NCBI GenBank assembly: GCA_028291365.1
Contig: JAQGIE010000199.1
Span: forward strand, 1 to 37,358
Reading direction: 5' to 3'
Source: Rhodospirillales bacterium
GTDB lineage: Bacteria; Pseudomonadota; Alphaproteobacteria; BOG-932; Roseiterribacteraceae
DNA: 37,358 bases
Made by a program: the position numbers and the translations under genes. A model generated the notes under the pieces. It was not told the origin of the DNA, searched no databases, and saw only the letters and a list, made by a program, of their open reading frames with translations. Position 1 is the stretch's first letter, and every line of letters begins with the position of its first letter. This document shows, in pieces, positions 2,091-37,358 of this stretch.

Positions 2091-3827
2091 TTATCTCCCG
2101 ATCGCCAGGCCTTCGCGCCGTTTGTCGGCAGCGCCGACCAGTGTGCCGTTCTCGAATGCGATGGCGTGCAGTCCGCTCGATTGCGGCGACACGCGAGTCT
2201 GATGACCCATCGCTGCCAGCGCCGGTTGCAGTTCGCTGTTTTCAAGCTCCGTCGGCCCGTTCCGGTTGAGCAGATGCGGCAGGTCGAGCGCGGATTGCAG
2301 GTCCATCTTCCAATCCAGTCGCGCCACCAGACTCTTCAGCACATAGCCCGGAATGGCGCTGCCGCCGGGTGAACCGAGCGCCAGCACCGGCATGCGGTTC
2401 GCGTCGAACACGATGGTCGGCATCATCGACGAGCGCGGACGTTTGCCCGGCTCGATTCTGTTTGCGACCGGGGCGCCGTCGGCGCCGGTCGGCGCGAGCG
2501 AAAAATCGGTCATGTGGTTGTTGAGCAGAAAGCCGCCGACGATCAGCCGCGATCCGAACGCGGTTTCGATCGACGTCGTCATCGCCACCAGCAAGCCGTC
2601 CTGGTCGACGATCGTCAAATGCGACGTGCCCGGCCGTTCGAGCGAACGGTCGGGCGCGCGTGCGGGCGGTGCACCCGGCGGTTCGCCCGCGGGCACGCGC
2701 TGGGCCGCGACATGCGCGGGATCGATCGCCGCGGCACGCGCGGCGAGATAGGCGCGGTCGAGCAGTCCCGCGACCGGTACCTGCACGAAATCCGAATCGG
2801 CCAGGTAGCGCTCGCGATCGGCGAAGGCGCGGCGTTGCGCTTCGGCAAGCAGATGCCACGGCTTGGGATCGCTCGGTTTCATCGACGGCAGGTCGAACTT
2901 CTCGAGCATGCCGAGCGATTCGAGCACCGTGACTCCGCCCGAACTCGGCATGCCGACGCTGCACACGCGGAACACGCGGTAGGGCCCGCAGACCGGTTCG
3001 CGCTGCTTGGTCTGGTAGGCGGCAAGGTCGCTCGCCTGCATGCGAACCGGGATCGGCGTCGGGGCGGCGGCTGCGGCTTGCTGCAGCTTTGCCAACAATT
3101 GGTGGCTGATGTCGCCCTTGTAGAAGGCATCGACGCCGTTCCTGGCGATGTCGCGCAGCGTCTTGGCGAAGGCCGGATTCTTGAACGTCTCGCCGACCTG
3201 CAGCGGCGTGCCGTTGCCGTGATAGAAGACCGCGCGCATGTCCGGCGTGGTGTCGAAATAGCGCTGCCCCTGCGACAGCAAGGTCGCCAGTCGCGGCGAC
3301 ACCTCGAAACCGTTTTCGGCGAGCTTGATCGCGGGTTCGAACAGGCGCGCCCAGGGCAGTTTTCCGTGGGCGCGGTGCAGCGTTTCGAGCAGGCGCGGCA
3401 GCCCCGGCACCGCCACGGCGCGGCCGTGTTCGATGGCGGCGAAGAAGCCAACCGGCTTGCCGTCGGGACCGAGAAAATCCTCCGGCGTTGACGCGGCGGG
3501 TGCCATTTCGCGCCCGTCATAAGAGCGCAGTTCGCCGTTCTTCTTCGACCAGGTCAGCACGAAGGCACCGCCGCCGAGGCCCGACGATTGCGGCTCGACG
3601 AGGTTGAGCACAAGCTGCGCCGCGATCGCGGCGTCGGCGGCGCTGCCGCCGGCTTCGAGCATCTCGGCCGCGGCACGCGACGCGTGCGGATTGGCCGACA
3701 CCGCCATCCAATGCTGTGCCACCACCGCCTGTTTTGCGGTGCTCGTCGTTGCAGCTTCGGGATCGGGCGATTGCGCTGCTGCAAGCGGTGCGAACAGCAG
3801 AAAAGCCACAATCCCGAGTTGCTTCAT
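2091..3827 (-). CDS. ggt: Gamma-glutamyltransferase (glutathione hydrolase)
   Basis: This is an N-terminal-nucleophile enzyme that cleaves gamma-glutamyl bonds, notably in glutathione, probably in the periplasm. The 578 residues begin with a signal peptide (LAAAQS, about 1-19). The substrate-carboxylate Arg motif YDGREMAP lies at 103-110. The autoprocessing and nucleophile Thr is T401 in PGTSHLTIVD, preceded by the Pro-rich loop usual before the cleavage site. RSSMMPT and GSPGGSAIPG complete the oxyanion and binding loops, matching the classical E. coli GGT layout. Its ATG overlaps the panC stop by 4 bases, so it is the third gene of a panB-panC-ggt unit, an unusual partnership. Confidence 0.92.
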   Translation of the reverse strand: MKQLGIVAFLLFAPLAAAQSPDPEAATTSTAKQAVVAQHWMAVSANPHASRAAAEMLEAGGSAADAAIAAQLVLNLVEPQSSGLGGGAFVLTWSKKNGELRSYDGREMAPAASTPEDFLGPDGKPVGFFAAIEHGRAVAVPGLPRLLETLHRAHGKLPWARLFEPAIKLAENGFEVSPRLATLLSQGQRYFDTTPDMRAVFYHGNGTPLQVGETFKNPAFAKTLRDIARNGVDAFYKGDISHQLLAKLQQAAAAAPTPIPVRMQASDLAAYQTKQREPVCGPYRVFRVCSVGMPSSGGVTVLESLGMLEKFDLPSMKPSDPKPWHLLAEAQRRAFADRERYLADSDFVQVPVAGLLDRAYLAARAAAIDPAHVAAQRVPAGEPPGAPPARAPDRSLERPGTSHLTIVDQDGLLVAMTTSIETAFGSRLIVGGFLLNNHMTDFSLAPTGADGAPVANRIEPGKRPRSSMMPTIVFDANRMPVLALGSPGGSAIPGYVLKSLVARLDWKMDLQSALDLPHLLNRNGPTELENSELQPALAAMGHQTRVSPQSSGLHAIAFENGTLVGAADKRREGLAIGR

Positions 3828-5625: not shown

Positions 5626-6606
5626 ATGCAGCTCGCCGTCCAAATCGAACGATTTCCACTTCGCCAGGTCTTTCGCATCGCCCGTGGGGCCAGGACCGAA
5701 GCCATCGTCGTGGTGGCAGAGCTCACCCAGGACGGCGTCACCGGTCGGGGAGAATGTGGACCGAATGCGCGCTACGGCGAGACCGCCGAGTCCGTGGCCG
5801 CGACCATCGAGTCCGTTCGCGGCGTGGTCGAAGCGGGGCTGGACCGGGCCGGGCTGCAGTCGCTGCTGAAGCCGGGGGCGGCTCGCAACGCGCTCGACTG
5901 CGCCTTTTGGGACCTCGAAGCCAAGCGGGCGGGCAAGCCGGCCTGGCAACTCGCGGGCATGGCGCCGCCGCGCGCCTGCACCACCGTTCTCACCATCAGC
6001 CTCGACGATCCGGACAAGATGGCAGCGTCGGCACGCGAGGCGGCGCATCTGCCGCTGCTGAAGCTCAAGCTCGCGGGCGACGGCAACGACGTGCCGCGCG
6101 TCGCCGCGGTGCGCCGGGCCGCGCCGCAGGCGCGTCTCATCGCCGACGCCAATGAAGGCTATCGCCGCGAATTTCTGATTGCCGACGCGCCGCGTTTCGC
6201 CGAGCTCGGCGTCGAAATGCTGGAACAGCCGCTGCCCGCGGCCGAAGACGATTTCCTGCGCGACTTCGACTCGCCGCTGCCGCTCGGCGCCGACGAGAGC
6301 GCGCACGCGCTGGATTCGCTGCCGGGCCTCGCGGGCAAATACAGCGTCATCAACATCAAGCTCGACAAGACCGGCGGCATGACCGAAGCGCTCGTGCTGG
6401 CCAAGGCGGCGCGCGAAGCGGGGATGGAAATCATGCTGGGCTGCATGCTCGGCACCTCGCTGGGCATGGCGCCGGGCGTGCTGGTGGCGCAGCTCGCCAA
6501 ATATGTCGATCTCGACGCGCCGCTGTTGCTGGCCAAGGATCGCACGCCGGGCCTTGCCTATAGCGGCGTGCAGATCGCGCCGCCCGAACCCGTGTTGTGG
6601 GGCTGA
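5626..6606 (+). CDS. L-Ala-D/L-Glu epimerase (dipeptide epimerase)
   Basis: This enolase-superfamily enzyme of 326 residues probably epimerises L-Ala-D-Glu from recycled murein to L-Ala-L-Glu. The catalytic set is complete: KxK at K146/K148 (LLKLKLAG), metal ligands D174 (IADANEGY), E200 (MLEQPLP) and D223 (GADES), and the opposing base K245 in INIKLDKTGG. That K-L-D-K-TGG wording is characteristic of dipeptide epimerases rather than muconate-type enzymes. The frame is open far upstream only as antisense of panB; the ATG at 5626 is the first sensible start, without a clear Shine-Dalgarno. It is divergent from panB and followed 19 bases later by a methyltransferase. Actual dipeptide specificity is not provable from sequence. 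Confidence 0.9.
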   Translation: MQLAVQIERFPLRQVFRIARGARTEAIVVVAELTQDGVTGRGECGPNARYGETAESVAATIESVRGVVEAGLDRAGLQSLLKPGAARNALDCAFWDLEAKRAGKPAWQLAGMAPPRACTTVLTISLDDPDKMAASAREAAHLPLLKLKLAGDGNDVPRVAAVRRAAPQARLIADANEGYRREFLIADAPRFAELGVEMLEQPLPAAEDDFLRDFDSPLPLGADESAHALDSLPGLAGKYSVINIKLDKTGGMTEALVLAKAAREAGMEIMLGCMLGTSLGMAPGVLVAQLAKYVDLDAPLLLAKDRTPGLAYSGVQIAPPEPVLWG

Positions 6607-11579: not shown

Positions 11580-11766
11580 ATCAGCGGGTTGGCGGCAGGG
11601 GTCCAATCGAGTAGATTGCTGTAGCGGCAGATGGCCGTCGATTTCGATCGACCGCCCTTGCAAGCGACCCGGCCCCTTTCGACGACGAATGACCGTGTCC
11701 GACGCTTCGAGCGTCCAGCGCCGCTCCCTGTAACCTCGTGACTTCGAGGACGAGAACCAGATCGTG

Positions 11767-12750
11767 ATGCGCCAAGGACAGAAGAACCGTTCGCGGGGAC
11801 GCAACAACAACAACAATAACAACCGTCGTCCCGGCGGAATGCCGAGTCGAAACCAGACCTATGATTCCAATGGTCCGGACGTCCGTATTCGTGGCAGCGC
11901 CTATCAGGTGCACGAGAAATATCTCGCTCTAGCGCGCGATGCGCAGGCCGCAGGCGACCGCGTCACCGCGGAAAACTACCTGCAGCACGCCGAGCATTAT
12001 TTCCGAATCATCGCCCAGATCCAGGACGCCCAGGGCCAGCGGCCGCCCTACAATGGCGGCCAGAGCGGCGACAATTTCCGCCGTGAATTCGGCGAAGGCT
12101 ATGACGAGGACGGCGACGGCGAGGGCGGCGGTGACGGCTATGAGGGCGGCGATCAGCAGCCCCAGCAGCCGCAATACCAGCACCCGCACCAGCCGCGTGA
12201 AAACCAGAACCGCGACGGCAATCGGGGGGACGGTGGCCGCGACGGCCAGGGCCGCGACGGTGGCCGTGACCGCGAATATCGCGGCGACCAGCCGCGTGAA
12301 CCGCGCGGCGACTACCGCGAAGGCCAGCAGCAGCGCGAAGGCCGCGAGCCTCGCGAAGCCCGCGAACCACGCGAACGGAACGAAGGGGGCCGGAACGAAG
12401 GCGCCCGGAACGAAGGCGGCGGCGAACGCGCCGCCCAGCCGCAGCCGGCGCCGCCGGTCCGCGAACCGCGCGAGCCCAGAGAACCGCGCGGAGAACCGCG
12501 CGAGCCGCGTGAGCCTCGCGAAGAACCGGCAGCCGCCCAGGCCGAAACGCCGACGCGTCCGGTGCGCCGCGAACGTGCGCCGCGCGGCGAACCGCGGGAG
12601 CCACGTGAGCCGCGCGAGCCCCGGGCCGAACCACGCGCCGAACGCGAGCCGCGCGAGCCCCGCGCCGGCGCCAGCGACCATCGTTCGTTGGCCCAGCGGC
12701 TGAACGAAAAGCTCGACGACGAAACCGAAGGCGAGACCGCCCCGTCCTGA
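11767..12750 (+). CDS. DUF4167 domain protein with long Arg/Glu/Pro repeat tail
   Basis: This 327-residue alphaproteobacterial protein of unknown molecular function begins with a basic, Asn-rich segment (RSRGRNN plus an Asn run). The conserved DUF4167 core follows at about residues 35-90 ([19 protein letters not shown]...[14 protein letters not shown]). The rest is disordered: first Asp/Gly/Gln-rich, then from about 180 onward dense Arg-Glu-Pro repeats (EPREPRE-like), closing with [15 protein letters not shown]. Such RG/RE-rich proteins suggest nucleic-acid or multivalent binding, which is inference. The place between prmC and clpB is the conserved alphaproteobacterial location. ATG at 11767 is preferred over the adjacent GTG at 11764. 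Confidence 0.88.
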
Positions 12751-15627: not shown

Positions 15628-15912
15628 TCAGTAGCCGTAAGGGCGATATACGACGCGCGGCGGCGCGTAGGGGTAGGCTGGCGGATAGTAAGCCGGCGGG
15701 TAGTAGGCCCGCGGGTAATAGGCCGGCCCCGGCACGACCACGACCGCACGCGGACGCCAGTAATGGTGGCCATAGGGGCGGACGATCACGGGCGGCGGCG
15801 CATAGCCGTAGCCGTAGCTGGGACCGACCGAAACGGTGAGCGAACTGTGGGCGGCGGCCGGACCGGCAGCGCCGAGCAGCAGCAGCGGCAGAGCCAAGAA
15901 CAACTTTTTCAT
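15628..15912 (-). CDS. Small secreted Tyr/Pro-rich protein
   Basis: This 94-residue exported protein starts MKKLFLALPLLLLG with a signal peptide ending near PAAAHS. The mature part (about 70 residues) is almost all Tyr, Pro, Ala, Gly, Val and Arg: YGYGYAPPPVIVRPYGHHYW, then AYYPPAYYPPAYPYAP, ending YRPYGY. It resembles PXPV-repeat/glycine-tyrosine-rich envelope proteins, which have no known activity. An upstream ATG two codons earlier (MVMKK) is equally possible. It stands alone, convergent with clpB. The aromatic repeats would suit a disordered cell-surface protein, but that is inference. Confidence 0.72.
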   Translation of the reverse strand: MKKLFLALPLLLLGAAGPAAAHSSLTVSVGPSYGYGYAPPPVIVRPYGHHYWRPRAVVVVPGPAYYPRAYYPPAYYPPAYPYAPPRVVYRPYGY

Positions 15913-16082
15913 GACCATCAAGATGGGGATCGATTGCGGCATTGGCGCGGCGTGCAATCGTCGGCGGAGCTTACATCGGCACCGAACGCAGATCGAAAAG
16001 CGGCGCGTTCGCTCGCGGGCATATCTGTTGCACCGCACGTCCAGGCGCGCAGGCCTTTCGGCAACCCACGTGGAGTCTCGTC

Positions 16083-16250
16083 ATGATGCTTCGTCTCGCA
16101 GTCGCCACTGCCGCTTTCGTTTCGATCTCGCAGGCCGCGTTTGCCGGCATTCCAGTCCCGCCGGTCAGCGTGCCTGAACCGACCACGCTCGCCATTCTCG
16201 GCGCCGGCGTTGCCGGTCTCGTCATCGCGAAGCTGCGCAACCGGAAATAG
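16083..16250 (+). CDS. Minimal PEP-CTERM protein (55 aa)
   Basis: The product is 55 residues: a signal peptide (about 1-21, ending AFA), then GIPVPPVS, then a complete PEP-CTERM sorting signal, VPEPTT followed by the hydrophobic helix LAILGAGVAGLVIA and the basic end KLRNRK. Almost nothing is left between export signal and sorting signal, only about 8 residues. A GGAG sits about 8 bases upstream of the tandem ATG-ATG start, which supports expression. PEP-CTERM proteins are normally processed by an exosortase; no such enzyme is in this window. It lies 17 bases before the fatty acid hydroxylase gene. It could be a decayed remnant of a longer protein. Confidence 0.65.
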   Translation: MMLRLAVATAAFVSISQAAFAGIPVPPVSVPEPTTLAILGAGVAGLVIAKLRNRK

Positions 16251-16267
16251 CCCGAGGGCGGCCCGGC

Positions 16268-17059
16268 ATGTGGCTGGTGCTCGCCTTTCTTCTGATCGGT
16301 GCGGTGGAAACGGCGCTGGCCCGCCAGCGGCGTTCCGCGCATGTCGGCGCGCGCTGGGCCGGCAATCTCGTGCTCTACGTTGCGGGCAGCGCGATGTTGC
16401 TGCTGCCGGCCGTCGCCGCCGCGATCAGCGCCTTCGCGGCGCCGAGCTGGGGGCTGCTGCATCGTCTCGACCTGCCGCAGCCGGCGGCGCTCGCGGTCGG
16501 AGTCATCGCGCTCGACGCCGGACTCTACGCGTTGCATCGACTCAGTCACGCGGTCGAGCCGCTGTGGCGGTTGCATGCGGTGCATCATTCCGATCCGCAT
16601 GTCGACGTCAGCACGACACTGCGCCAGCACCCGTTCGCACTGCTGCTGAGCAGCTTCGTCTTCGCCGCGATCGTCGGCCTGTTGGGGCTGCCGCCCGAAG
16701 CCGCGGTTCTCTACGCCGCGATGCAGACCGCCGTCACGCTGGTCGCGCATGCCGAGCTGCACGTCCCGGCGCAGCTCGACGCGATGCTGGCGCATGTCGT
16801 GGTGACGCCGCGCGTGCATCACCTGCATCACTCGCGCCGCCAGATCGAGACCGACAGCAATTACGGCGAGCTGCTCACCTTGTGGGACAGGTTGTTCGGC
16901 ACCTGGCGCGATCCTCGTTTGATCGATGCGGCTTCGATCGCGTACGGGCTCGATCGGTTCAATGACCGGCGCGACCAGCTTCCGCACCGGTTGCTGATCC
17001 AGCCCTTTGTCGGGCCGACCACGGCCATCGATTGCGAGGGGCCGCCCGCGATGGTTTGA
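16268..17059 (+). CDS. Sterol desaturase / fatty acid hydroxylase family protein
   Basis: This 263-residue integral membrane di-iron oxygenase has at least four hydrophobic segments (about 1-17, 30-58, 75-92 and 125-150). The eight-His iron-binding pattern of the FA_hydroxylase family is present: HRLSH, LHAVHHSD and VHHLHHS, plus HAELH between the last two. The ending NYGELLTLWDRLFGTW is diagnostic of the family. The substrate (sterol, fatty acyl chain or carotenoid-like lipid) cannot be told. It leads a probable operon, with the gamma-glutamyltransferase-family gene starting 8 bases after its stop. Confidence 0.9.
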   Translation: MWLVLAFLLIGAVETALARQRRSAHVGARWAGNLVLYVAGSAMLLLPAVAAAISAFAAPSWGLLHRLDLPQPAALAVGVIALDAGLYALHRLSHAVEPLWRLHAVHHSDPHVDVSTTLRQHPFALLLSSFVFAAIVGLLGLPPEAAVLYAAMQTAVTLVAHAELHVPAQLDAMLAHVVVTPRVHHLHHSRRQIETDSNYGELLTLWDRLFGTWRDPRLIDAASIAYGLDRFNDRRDQLPHRLLIQPFVGPTTAIDCEGPPAMV

Positions 17060-17066
17060 TCGATGG

Positions 17067-18812
17067 ATGAAATCCGTTCTTCGACTCTGCGCGGCCCTCA
17101 TGATTGTCCCCATGTCCGCGCACGCGGAAATCGGACGCGGTGACCGGCTTTCCGGTCTTCCGCTGGCGACGCGCAGCCCTGTCGTGGCGCCGCACGGCGC
17201 AGCGGCGACCAGCCAGCCGCTCGCGACCCAGGTCGCGATCCGCATCCTGCAACAGGGTGGCAGCGCCATCGATGCCGCGATCGCCGCCAACGCGACGCTC
17301 GGCTTGATGGAGCCGACAGGGAGCGGAGTCGGCGGCGATCTCTACGCCATCGTCTGGGATCCCAAGACCCAGCGCCTCTACGGCTACAACAGCTCCGGGC
17401 GGAGTCCGAAAGGGCTCGACCTGGCGACGGTGAAAAGCAAGGCGGACACCAACGGGTTCATCCCGCAATGGGGCGCAATCTCGGTGACCGTGCCGGGCAC
17501 GGTCGATGGCTGGTACGCGTTGCACGGCAAGTTCGGCAAGCTGCCGATGAAACAGCTGCTGGCGCCCGCGATCGGCTATGCCAAGGACGGGTTTCCCTGG
17601 TCGCAATTCATCGCCAAAGCCATCACGGCCAATCTGCGCCGGCTCGATGAGCTGAGCCAGAAAGGCGTCGTCGAAGAGTTCGACAACGCACGCAAGCTGT
17701 GGCTCGCGAACGGTGAGCCGCGCGACGGCAAGATGTTCCGCAATCCTGACCTCGCGCGCACCTATCAGCTGCTCGCGGCGGGCGGGCGCGACGCCTATTA
17801 CAAAGGGCCGGTTGCCAAGACCGTCGACGCCTATATGCGCCGCATCGGCGGCTGGCTGCGCTACGAGGACTTTGCCGCCCACAAGGGCGAATGGGTCGAC
17901 CCGGTCTCGGTCAAATATCGCGGCGTCGAAGTCTGGGAGCTGCCGCCCAACACCCAGGGCATCGCGACCTTGCAGATGCTGAACCTGATGGAAGGCTACG
18001 ACCTGAAATCGATGGGCGCGGGCAGCGCCGACGCGCTGCATGTGATGATCGAGGCGAAGAAGATCGCCTATGCCGATCGCGCCAAGCTCTACGCCGATGC
18101 CAAGTCGATGACGGTGCCGGTCGAAGCGCTGGTCTCCAAGCTCTACGCCGAACAACGCCGCAAGCTGATCCAGATGGACCGCGCGCTCGACAACGTCGAG
18201 GCGGGCGCGCCGACCGGCCATGGCGGCACGATCTATCTCACCGTCGCCGACAAGGACGGGATGATGGTGAGCCTGATCCAGTCGAACTTCCGCGGACTCG
18301 GCTCCGGGCTGGTGCCGGACGGGCTGGGCTTCATGCTGCAGGATCGCGGCGCGCTGTTCGTCGCCACCGACGGCCATCCCAACCAGTACGCGCCGGGCAA
18401 GCGCCCGTTCCACACCATCATTCCCGGTTTCGCGACCAAGGACGGCCAGCCGTGGCTGTCATTCGGCGTGATGGGCGGCGCAATGCAGCCGCAGGGCCAC
18501 GTGCAGATCATCGCCAATCTGGTCGATTTCGGCATGGACGTGCAGGAGGCGGGGGACGCGGCGCGCTGGCAGCATTTCGGCGCCGGCACCGCCGACGATC
18601 CCTACGGCAAGCCGGGCGGCGAAATCGTGCTCGAAAGCGGCATCGCCGCCGCCTCGGTCGACGAGCTGAAAAAGCGCGGCCATGTCGTGCGTTCCCATGG
18701 CGGCGGCAAGGAGCATTACGGCTCCTATGAAGCGATCCTGTGGGACGCGAAGGAGAAGGTCTATCGTGCGGCGACCGAGAGCCGCGTCGACGGGATGGCG
18801 GCCGGGTATTGA
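17067..18812 (+). CDS. Gamma-glutamyltransferase-family Ntn hydrolase (YwrD / acylase-like branch)
   Basis: This 581-residue exported enzyme has a signal peptide at about 1-20 (MSAHA). The fold-defining GGSAIDAAIAANATLGLMEP and the self-cleavage nucleophile T388 in GHGGTIYLTVADKDG are intact. It lacks the classical PSSM-type loop (RPFHTIIPG instead) and has GVMGGAMQPQGHVQ, wording seen in YwrD-type GGTs and cephalosporin acylase relatives. Thus it is a different branch from the ggt gene at 2091-3827 and may hydrolyse another amide. ATG 17067 is chosen because it begins the signal peptide; an out-of-frame ATG sits 4 bases upstream. Confidence 0.88.
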   Translation: MKSVLRLCAALMIVPMSAHAEIGRGDRLSGLPLATRSPVVAPHGAAATSQPLATQVAIRILQQGGSAIDAAIAANATLGLMEPTGSGVGGDLYAIVWDPKTQRLYGYNSSGRSPKGLDLATVKSKADTNGFIPQWGAISVTVPGTVDGWYALHGKFGKLPMKQLLAPAIGYAKDGFPWSQFIAKAITANLRRLDELSQKGVVEEFDNARKLWLANGEPRDGKMFRNPDLARTYQLLAAGGRDAYYKGPVAKTVDAYMRRIGGWLRYEDFAAHKGEWVDPVSVKYRGVEVWELPPNTQGIATLQMLNLMEGYDLKSMGAGSADALHVMIEAKKIAYADRAKLYADAKSMTVPVEALVSKLYAEQRRKLIQMDRALDNVEAGAPTGHGGTIYLTVADKDGMMVSLIQSNFRGLGSGLVPDGLGFMLQDRGALFVATDGHPNQYAPGKRPFHTIIPGFATKDGQPWLSFGVMGGAMQPQGHVQIIANLVDFGMDVQEAGDAARWQHFGAGTADDPYGKPGGEIVLESGIAAASVDELKKRGHVVRSHGGGKEHYGSYEAILWDAKEKVYRAATESRVDGMAAGY

Positions 18813-37065: not shown

Positions 37066-37358
37066 TCAGTTCTTGCGGCGCCGTACCATGCCCATCCCGA
37101 ACAAGGCGGTGCCGAGCAGCGCCAACGTTGCCGGCTCCGGCACGTTGGGGCCGCCGCCGCCGATCGTGCCGTACGACACGTTGTCGAACTCGAACGCGTT
37201 GCTGCTCGAGCTGAAGGCGACGCTGGTGAAGGCGTCGCCGCCGTTGAACAGGAACTCGACGAAGCGGTTGGTGGCGCTGCTCGACTGGTTGCCGTTGGCC
37301 GGGTTCCAGATATCGGCGCCGGTGAAGCTCTGCACCAGCGTCAGGCCGTTGAAGAACG
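37066..37358 (-). CDS. PEP-CTERM domain protein, 5' end beyond the window
   Basis: About 97 C-terminal codons are visible; the frame stays open to the window edge, so the start and signal peptide are missing. The visible part reads FFNGLTLVQSFTGADIWNPA, then Ser/Asn/Phe-rich segments ending ...NAFEFDNVSYG, like the end of a beta-sandwich. A Gly-rich linker and a complete PEP-CTERM signal follow: VPEPATLALLGTALFGMGM and the basic end VRRRKN. Such proteins are exported, and the tail is removed by an exosortase. It is the second PEP-CTERM protein in the window, and its far larger mature domain contrasts with the 55-aa one. Confidence 0.87.
   Translation of the reverse strand, partial: FFNGLTLVQSFTGADIWNPANGNQSSSATNRFVEFLFNGGDAFTSVAFSSSSNAFEFDNVSYGTIGGGGPNVPEPATLALLGTALFGMGMVRRRKN

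Follow-up and report, generated by a model that had tools for sequence, protein, structure and literature searches.

A 55-residue PEP-CTERM protein encoded beside a fatty acid hydroxylase: a candidate module linking exosortase sorting to membrane lipids

The locus and the sorting system of its genome

The window, the whole 37,358-nucleotide stretch of DNA analyzed here, encodes a 55-residue protein whose translation (16083-16250, + strand) is MMLRLAVATAAFVSISQAAFAGIPVPPVSVPEPTTLAILGAGVAGLVIAKLRNRK. This mini-ORF is followed after 17 nt by a gene for a fatty acid hydroxylase (FAH) superfamily protein, and the two genes lie in a segment that is missing from a second genome of the same genus (G001). 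The features, with the evidence for each, are as follows.

15953..17122, no strand: segment missing from G001 that holds the mini-ORF and the FAH gene, with conserved flanks (comparison with G001)
16072..16075, +: Shine-Dalgarno sequence GGAG, 7 nt 5' of the ATG (sequence)
16083..16250, +: minimal PEP-CTERM protein, 55 aa (translation; PF07589, 29.7 bits, cut-off 20.7; TIGR02595, 24.4 bits, cut-off 16)
16083..16145, +: predicted signal peptide, residues 1-21, with inferred cleavage between AFA and G (inspection and hydropathy scan)
16146..16172, +: exported segment GIPVPPVSV, nine residues before PEP (translation; boundaries inferred)
16173..16247, +: PEP-CTERM sorting signal, comprising PEP, a transmembrane segment and the basic end KLRNRK (PF07589, TIGR02595)
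16268..17059, +: FAH superfamily protein, 263 aa (PF04116, 101.9 bits; His boxes intact)

The first-pass annotation had read the mini-ORF as encoding a PEP-CTERM protein whose mature part is all but absent, preceded by a plausible Shine-Dalgarno sequence, and this was borne out by the GGAG and by a tail that exceeds the cut-offs of both models. Its estimate of about eight residues between the two signals was right about the brevity of the segment and one residue short. In a six-frame TIGR02595 scan of the whole 4.37-Mb genome the tail has an E-value of 3.6e-4, making a chance match unlikely, and inspection and a hydropathy scan place a hydrophobic stretch and the AFA site at the N-terminus. 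The open frame extends to 111 aa if the first start, TTG 15942, is taken; GC content by codon position is 0.60/0.67/0.65 in the 129 nt upstream, without bias, versus 0.69/0.53/0.73 inside the mini-ORF, which favors ATG 16083 and disfavors the TTG. A candidate sigma-54 site 5' of the mini-ORF, sought by eye, was discarded for its wrong spacing. Judged by these sequence features, the mini-ORF is probably a real gene.

The genome (G000) has a single exosortase gene (contig C232; PF09721, 214.7 bits), so that the exosortase which the annotation had suggested looking for elsewhere in the genome is present. The TIGR02595 scan returned 23 matches, 21 of them over the cut-off, and there are about 20 PEP-CTERM genes besides the mini-ORF, mostly full-length. 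The matching genes encode proteins of approximately 190-470 aa, with three exceptions: the mini-ORF; a 58-aa frame (L021) that matches the model without the motif and was judged a chance match; and a second PEP-CTERM gene of the window, 37066-37335 (-), truncated by the contig end. The latter also contains an Npun_F0296 exosortase-dependent family domain (39.4 bits, cut-off 29). The window further encodes a DUF4167 protein (11764-12750), which we take to be the mark of an alphaproteobacterium.

In G001, clpA (94% identical) and the gamma-glutamyltranspeptidase gene (GGT; 84%) are retained in the same order. DNA similarity spans the small upstream minus-strand gene to approximately position 15952 and restarts at 17123, within GGT; in place of the 1.17 kb that holds the mini-ORF and FAH gene, G001 has approximately 90 bp. 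We found neither a PEP-CTERM remnant nor a longer protein in this replacement, in contrast to the longer protein in relatives that the annotation had named as evidence of an internal deletion. No FAH match was found anywhere in G001 at E 1e-8, and every PEP-CTERM frame of that genome is at least 193 aa long. With two genomes compared, the difference may be an insertion in one or a deletion in the other. The minus-strand gene (15628-15912), located between clpA and the module, encodes a small Tyr/Pro/Gly-rich, apparently secreted protein with no Pfam match and is kept in G001 with 76% DNA identity over 333 aligned positions.

The three His boxes of the window FAH are HRLSH, HAVHH and HHLHH (HX3H, HX2HH and HX2HH). 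Its best named match is the model for OlsE (NF052566), a member of the FAH superfamily described as hydroxylating the ornithine moiety of ornithine lipids (PMC3972451); at 90.5 bits, far under the cut-off of 475, identity with OlsE was rejected. No solved structure matched the FAH by sequence at E up to 1. Only 7 nt separate its stop from the start of GGT (17067-18812, +), and the module may therefore share a transcript with a gene of the locus common to G001.

Recurrence of the gene pair

With the 55-aa protein as query, 29 of 385 genomes of the class had a match. One of them, G233, encodes three tandem minimal PEP-CTERM ORFs (contig C122; 57, 56 and 57 aa), followed after approximately 15 nt by an FAH gene (L191 2123-3028, -) whose product is 36% identical to that of the window; G315 (contig C53) has a short PEP-CTERM frame and then an FAH gene. 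An alignment of five mini-proteins found matches in at least 31 of 289 relatives of G233 and added two contigs of G397 (C28 and C45), both with an FAH gene directly downstream. A nine-protein alignment found matches in at least 37 of 398 genomes of the phylum and added two loci from beyond the class, both with an adjoining FAH gene: G709:C9 (51 aa) and G741:C77 (54 aa), the latter with DEP in place of PEP (TIGR02595, 17.6 bits). These are counts from the best candidates of each genome, at most 22 among the relatives of G233 and 16 in the phylum, and misses are likely. Alignments A2 and A3 were made only or mostly from FAH-linked mini-proteins, and the later searches may favor such proteins; several genomes are fragmented, and G397 has 8% contamination. 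The 50-60-aa PEP-CTERM ORFs adjoining an FAH gene that the annotation had proposed to seek in relatives thus exist in other genomes.

The pair was also approached from the FAH side. Among 71 FAH genes with enough upstream DNA, 15 were flagged as preceded by a small ORF whose product is hydrophobic at both ends and has a basic terminus, and 12 of these ORFs carry a sorting signal; the remaining three (at L056, L185 and L190) have none. The 12 comprise the window FAH, six that had been fetched via a mini-ORF, and five fetched by FAH similarity alone, whose mini-ORFs bear sorting signals other than the PEP type. Since only 5 of the 64 FAH genes fetched by similarity alone have a mini-ORF, and most FAH genes lack one, the FAH does not need it. 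The same hydropathy filter flagged 15 of 251 non-FAH genes, of which five are the same mini-ORFs in overlapping frames; no sorting signal was seen in the others.

Altogether, a minimal sorting-substrate ORF lies directly upstream of an FAH gene in the window and at ten more loci (G233:C122, G315:C53, G397:C28, G397:C45, G709:C9, G741:C77, L055, L060, L062 and L094), for a total of 12 FAH genes at 11 loci in 10 genomes of at least two proteobacterial classes. Two results go beyond the first-pass annotation: the FAH is a recurrent partner of the mini-protein, and the type of tail varies by locus (PEP at seven, IPTL at three and VPEI at one). The L055 contig, from an uncultured gammaproteobacterium, encodes the FAH that was the top match of the contig search (43% identity); its mini-ORF (60 aa) ends in an IPTL-CTERM tail (29.7 bits, cut-off 20.5), and two longer proteins on the contig have IPTL-like ends by eye. 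L062 and L060, both from Burkholderiales, likewise have tails of IPTL type; that of L062 scores 27.2 bits and that of L060 18.7, just under the cut-off. At L094 (genome G055) there are two FAH genes, each preceded by a 55-aa ORF with a VPEIS or APEVS tail, and the second FAH gene has a further copy of the mini-ORF before it. The resemblance of these tails to VPEID-CTERM, a signal that goes with exosortase E, is weak (15.1 bits against a cut-off of 33 for the first, no match for the second). Upstream of the intact mini-ORF of L062 is a second IPTL-type copy (approximately 3350-3520, +) with signal peptide and tail out of frame, either a pseudogene or an assembly error.

The flanking genes differ from locus to locus: clpA and GGT in the window, an elongation factor Tu gene (tuf) and secE in G709, the ribosomal protein L19 gene (rplS) and a glycine transporter gene in G741, and an EamA transporter or carbohydrate kinase gene on the G397 contigs. 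To judge from this gene order, what recurs is the unit of mini-ORF and FAH gene alone and not a neighborhood. One G233 peptide searched against plasmids had no match.

The association is specific to short PEP-CTERM ORFs. Of 18 short ORFs, 7 have an FAH gene downstream on the same strand, no more than 600 nt away, whereas 0 of 115 long ORFs do (Fisher 2.6e-7); when the G233 array is counted once, the figures are 5 of 16 versus 0 of 115 (Fisher 1.5e-5). A general proximity of FAH genes to PEP-CTERM genes is thereby rejected. The comparison draws on the 138 distinct ORFs that passed the tail model among the fetched PEP-CTERM loci, less five short ones cut by a contig end; three of the long ORFs have less than 300 nt of downstream sequence, and two FAH-linked mini-ORFs (L230 and L268) fell under the threshold of the tail model and are outside the count. 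The proportion obtained for the short ORFs may be too high, as the later alignments were made from FAH-linked mini-ORFs, a bias that leaves the 0 of 115 unaffected. Seven further short frames (L140, L157, L163, L194, L232, L246 and L256) were set aside as fragments with no visible signal peptide.

These counts bear on the possibility that the mini-protein modulates sorting, acting as a low-cost substrate that is made together with a membrane-remodeling enzyme and either charges the exosortase or competes for it; the first-pass annotation had offered the competitor role. The mini-protein is essentially just two signals, and the window genome has one exosortase for about 20 substrates, as such a role would lead one to expect; it would leave unexplained, however, why an FAH gene recurs next to the mini-ORFs and adjoins none of the 115 long PEP-CTERM ORFs, and we consider it improbable.

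Minimal PEP-CTERM ORFs free of an FAH gene also exist. G385 has one of 60 aa (L227 3988-4257, -), with no FAH gene within the 5.3 kb examined, and G392 (L228 200-466, -) and G395 (L229 3793-4275, -) have related ones of 70 and 72 aa, for which no FAH was found. The G392 and G395 proteins share a conserved extension past the arginines, and the G395 ORF lies, by eye, between acetolactate synthase-like and formate-tetrahydrofolate ligase-like genes.

Tails, exported segments and hydroxylases

All 12 mini-ORFs that were read out start with ATG, most of them after a purine-rich stretch. In the tandem tails of G233, pS (synonymous differences per site) is 0.48-0.65 and pN (non-synonymous) 0.04-0.13; pS/pN is 0.14/0.02 and 0.56/0.18 for the G055 copies and 0.66/0.16 for L060 versus L062, while the values for G392 versus G395 were not used because of a one-residue shift in the comparison. 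By these substitution patterns the G233 tails are under purifying selection, although sorting recognition alone would constrain them.

Two readings of the mini-ORF sit poorly with this constraint. It could be what an internal deletion left of a longer PEP-CTERM gene, as the first-pass annotation had allowed, and the other PEP-CTERM genes of its genome are indeed several times longer. Yet G001 has no gene of any length at the locus, the minimal form recurs alongside an FAH gene in further families and in a second class, and the G233 tails are under selection; we reject this reading as scarcely credible. Alternatively, it could act as a leader whose translation is coupled to expression of the FAH gene, its product being inert. 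The short gaps to the FAH in the window and G233 would suit a leader, as would a terminator-like hairpin and T run seen by eye between the two genes in G315 (L192 approximately 5848-5892, +), where attenuation is possible. A leader, however, would not retain a signal peptide and a class-specific sorting signal or show purifying selection on its amino acids, and the gaps between mini-ORF and FAH range up to approximately 120 nt; this makes the idea very improbable.

The exported segments, with cleavage placed by eye, are 6-11 residues long (GIPVPPVSV, APPAPVEV, GAVIVPI, SNIIVV, SQVNLTSV, TGAPIPV, RIPTVV, GISTPTQV, GSAPVATPVD and others). They resemble one another in length and composition, with no residue common across loci. 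Among tandem copies they differ while the tails are nearly constant, as might be expected of a secreted peptide signal, a role that the first-pass annotation had offered, or of a diversified exported peptide, in either case with an accompanying hydroxylated lipid made by the FAH; the tandem copies in G233 and G055 fit this as well. The absence of a conserved residue nevertheless weakens the case for a conserved pheromone, and among the neighbors examined neither a receptor nor a transporter is recurrent, leaving such a signal a distinctly unlikely explanation.

All three His boxes are intact in the 12 mini-linked FAHs. In trees these enzymes cluster but fall into more than one clade, suggesting repeated gain or loss of the pairing. 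A quick tree requires six label changes (mini-linked or not) for 12 rows, a number as low as in none of 500 shuffles, with at least two forced by the starred branches, and a single ancient clade of mini-linked FAHs is accordingly unsupported; this tree omitted eight loci (L081, L086 and L088-L093), whose FAH rows were mostly long or odd in the fuller tree. In the latter, the window FAH groups with that of G233 (support 98/88).

The main rival to the explanation we favor below is that the mini-protein belongs to the FAH as a small membrane subunit or helps to assemble it, with the tail as an anchor, the basic cytosolic end contacting the enzyme, and any cutting by the exosortase incidental. In a post hoc comparison, seven of nine FAH-linked PEP-type mini-proteins have a C-terminal K or R versus 20 of 113 ordinary tails, and RRR is present in two of nine versus 71 of 113, a difference that a contact with the enzyme could explain, together with the lack of conservation in the exported segment. 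A plain anchor, however, needs no PEP or IPTL motif, and the majority of FAHs are not accompanied by a mini-protein. That the tail class changes from host to host also argues against a subunit, as the above-cut-off IPTL tails of L055 and L062 suggest that the tail follows the sorting system. We regard the subunit reading as possible but doubtful.

A proposed lipid-linked function

The best explanation, to which we give an even chance on this comparative evidence, is that the minimal exosortase substrate and the downstream FAH form a two-gene module that acts through a lipid-based mechanism. In its favor are the signal architecture, the exosortase gene, the recurrence with at least two sorting-signal classes, the selection on the tails, and the joint absence of both genes from G001; the recurring unit points to a link between exosortase sorting and membrane lipids. 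What goes beyond the presence and joint recurrence of the two genes we infer as follows. The mini-protein would be exported by Sec and its signal peptide removed, leaving the tail held in the inner membrane and PEP on its periplasmic side. The exosortase would then cut at PEP and, by analogy with archaeosortase A, move the 6-11-residue peptide onto a membrane lipid, and the FAH, an enzyme type whose active site normally lies on the cytosolic side, would hydroxylate this acceptor lipid or its precursor. The product could be a small lipopeptide of ribosomal origin or a peptide-capped lipid of the cell envelope. That this is a widespread pathway, in which the peptide is joined to an FAH-hydroxylated lipid and the tail is swapped to suit each class of exosortase (PEP, IPTL, possibly VPEI), is a more tentative proposal and rather unlikely to hold in full.

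The analogy with archaeosortase A, a related enzyme, would lie in processing of the sortase type linked to an enzyme of lipid metabolism (PssA/PssD in haloarchaea). As described in PMC7157517, processing by archaeosortase A goes with covalent lipid attachment to its substrates and needs a phosphatidylserine synthase-type gene; artA adjoins the lipid-synthesis gene pssA in methanogens, and, after this neighborhood had been noted, the Haloferax pssA and pssD homologs were shown to be needed for lipid anchoring. The enzyme, lipid and domain of life are all different. If the proposal is true, the module could reveal which lipid serves bacterial exosortases as acceptor. Being almost all signals and tied to a membrane hydroxylase, the mini-protein would be a good probe for where these enzymes attach their substrates; its product would be small enough for mass spectrometry, and the FAH suggests the class of molecule to examine.

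Among known systems, the closest is that of PEP-CTERM proteins and exosortase (EpsH/XrtA; TIGR02595/PF07589), which shares with the window PEP, the transmembrane segment, the basic C-terminus, the exosortase encoded in the genome and probably also the signal peptide, a prediction here. In the description of Haft et al. 2006 (PMC1569441), the tail consists of a motif on the periplasmic side, a helix spanning the membrane and a cluster of basic residues in the cytosol. Unlike the usual members, the mini-protein has only nine residues between its signals, and its kind has a recurrent FAH neighbor. Tiny dedicated exosortase targets are already known, having been named as PExPT-CTERM, the targets of XrtJ, with a 57-position whole-protein model (TIGR04200); minimal substrates paired with an FAH across sorting classes we did not find described, and they seem new. 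Among the open-access papers searched, a scope that leaves absence unproven, none was found that combines "PEP-CTERM" with "fatty acid hydroxylase" or "sterol desaturase". The window protein matches neither TIGR04200 nor the IPTL-CTERM (TIGR04174) and midcut-by-XrtH (NF033207) models at E up to 1. The mini-proteins of L055, L060 and L062 follow the same design in an IPTL-type version and match the first third of NF033207, a model that runs to 175 positions; that of L055 scores 36.4 bits, under the cut-off of 45.
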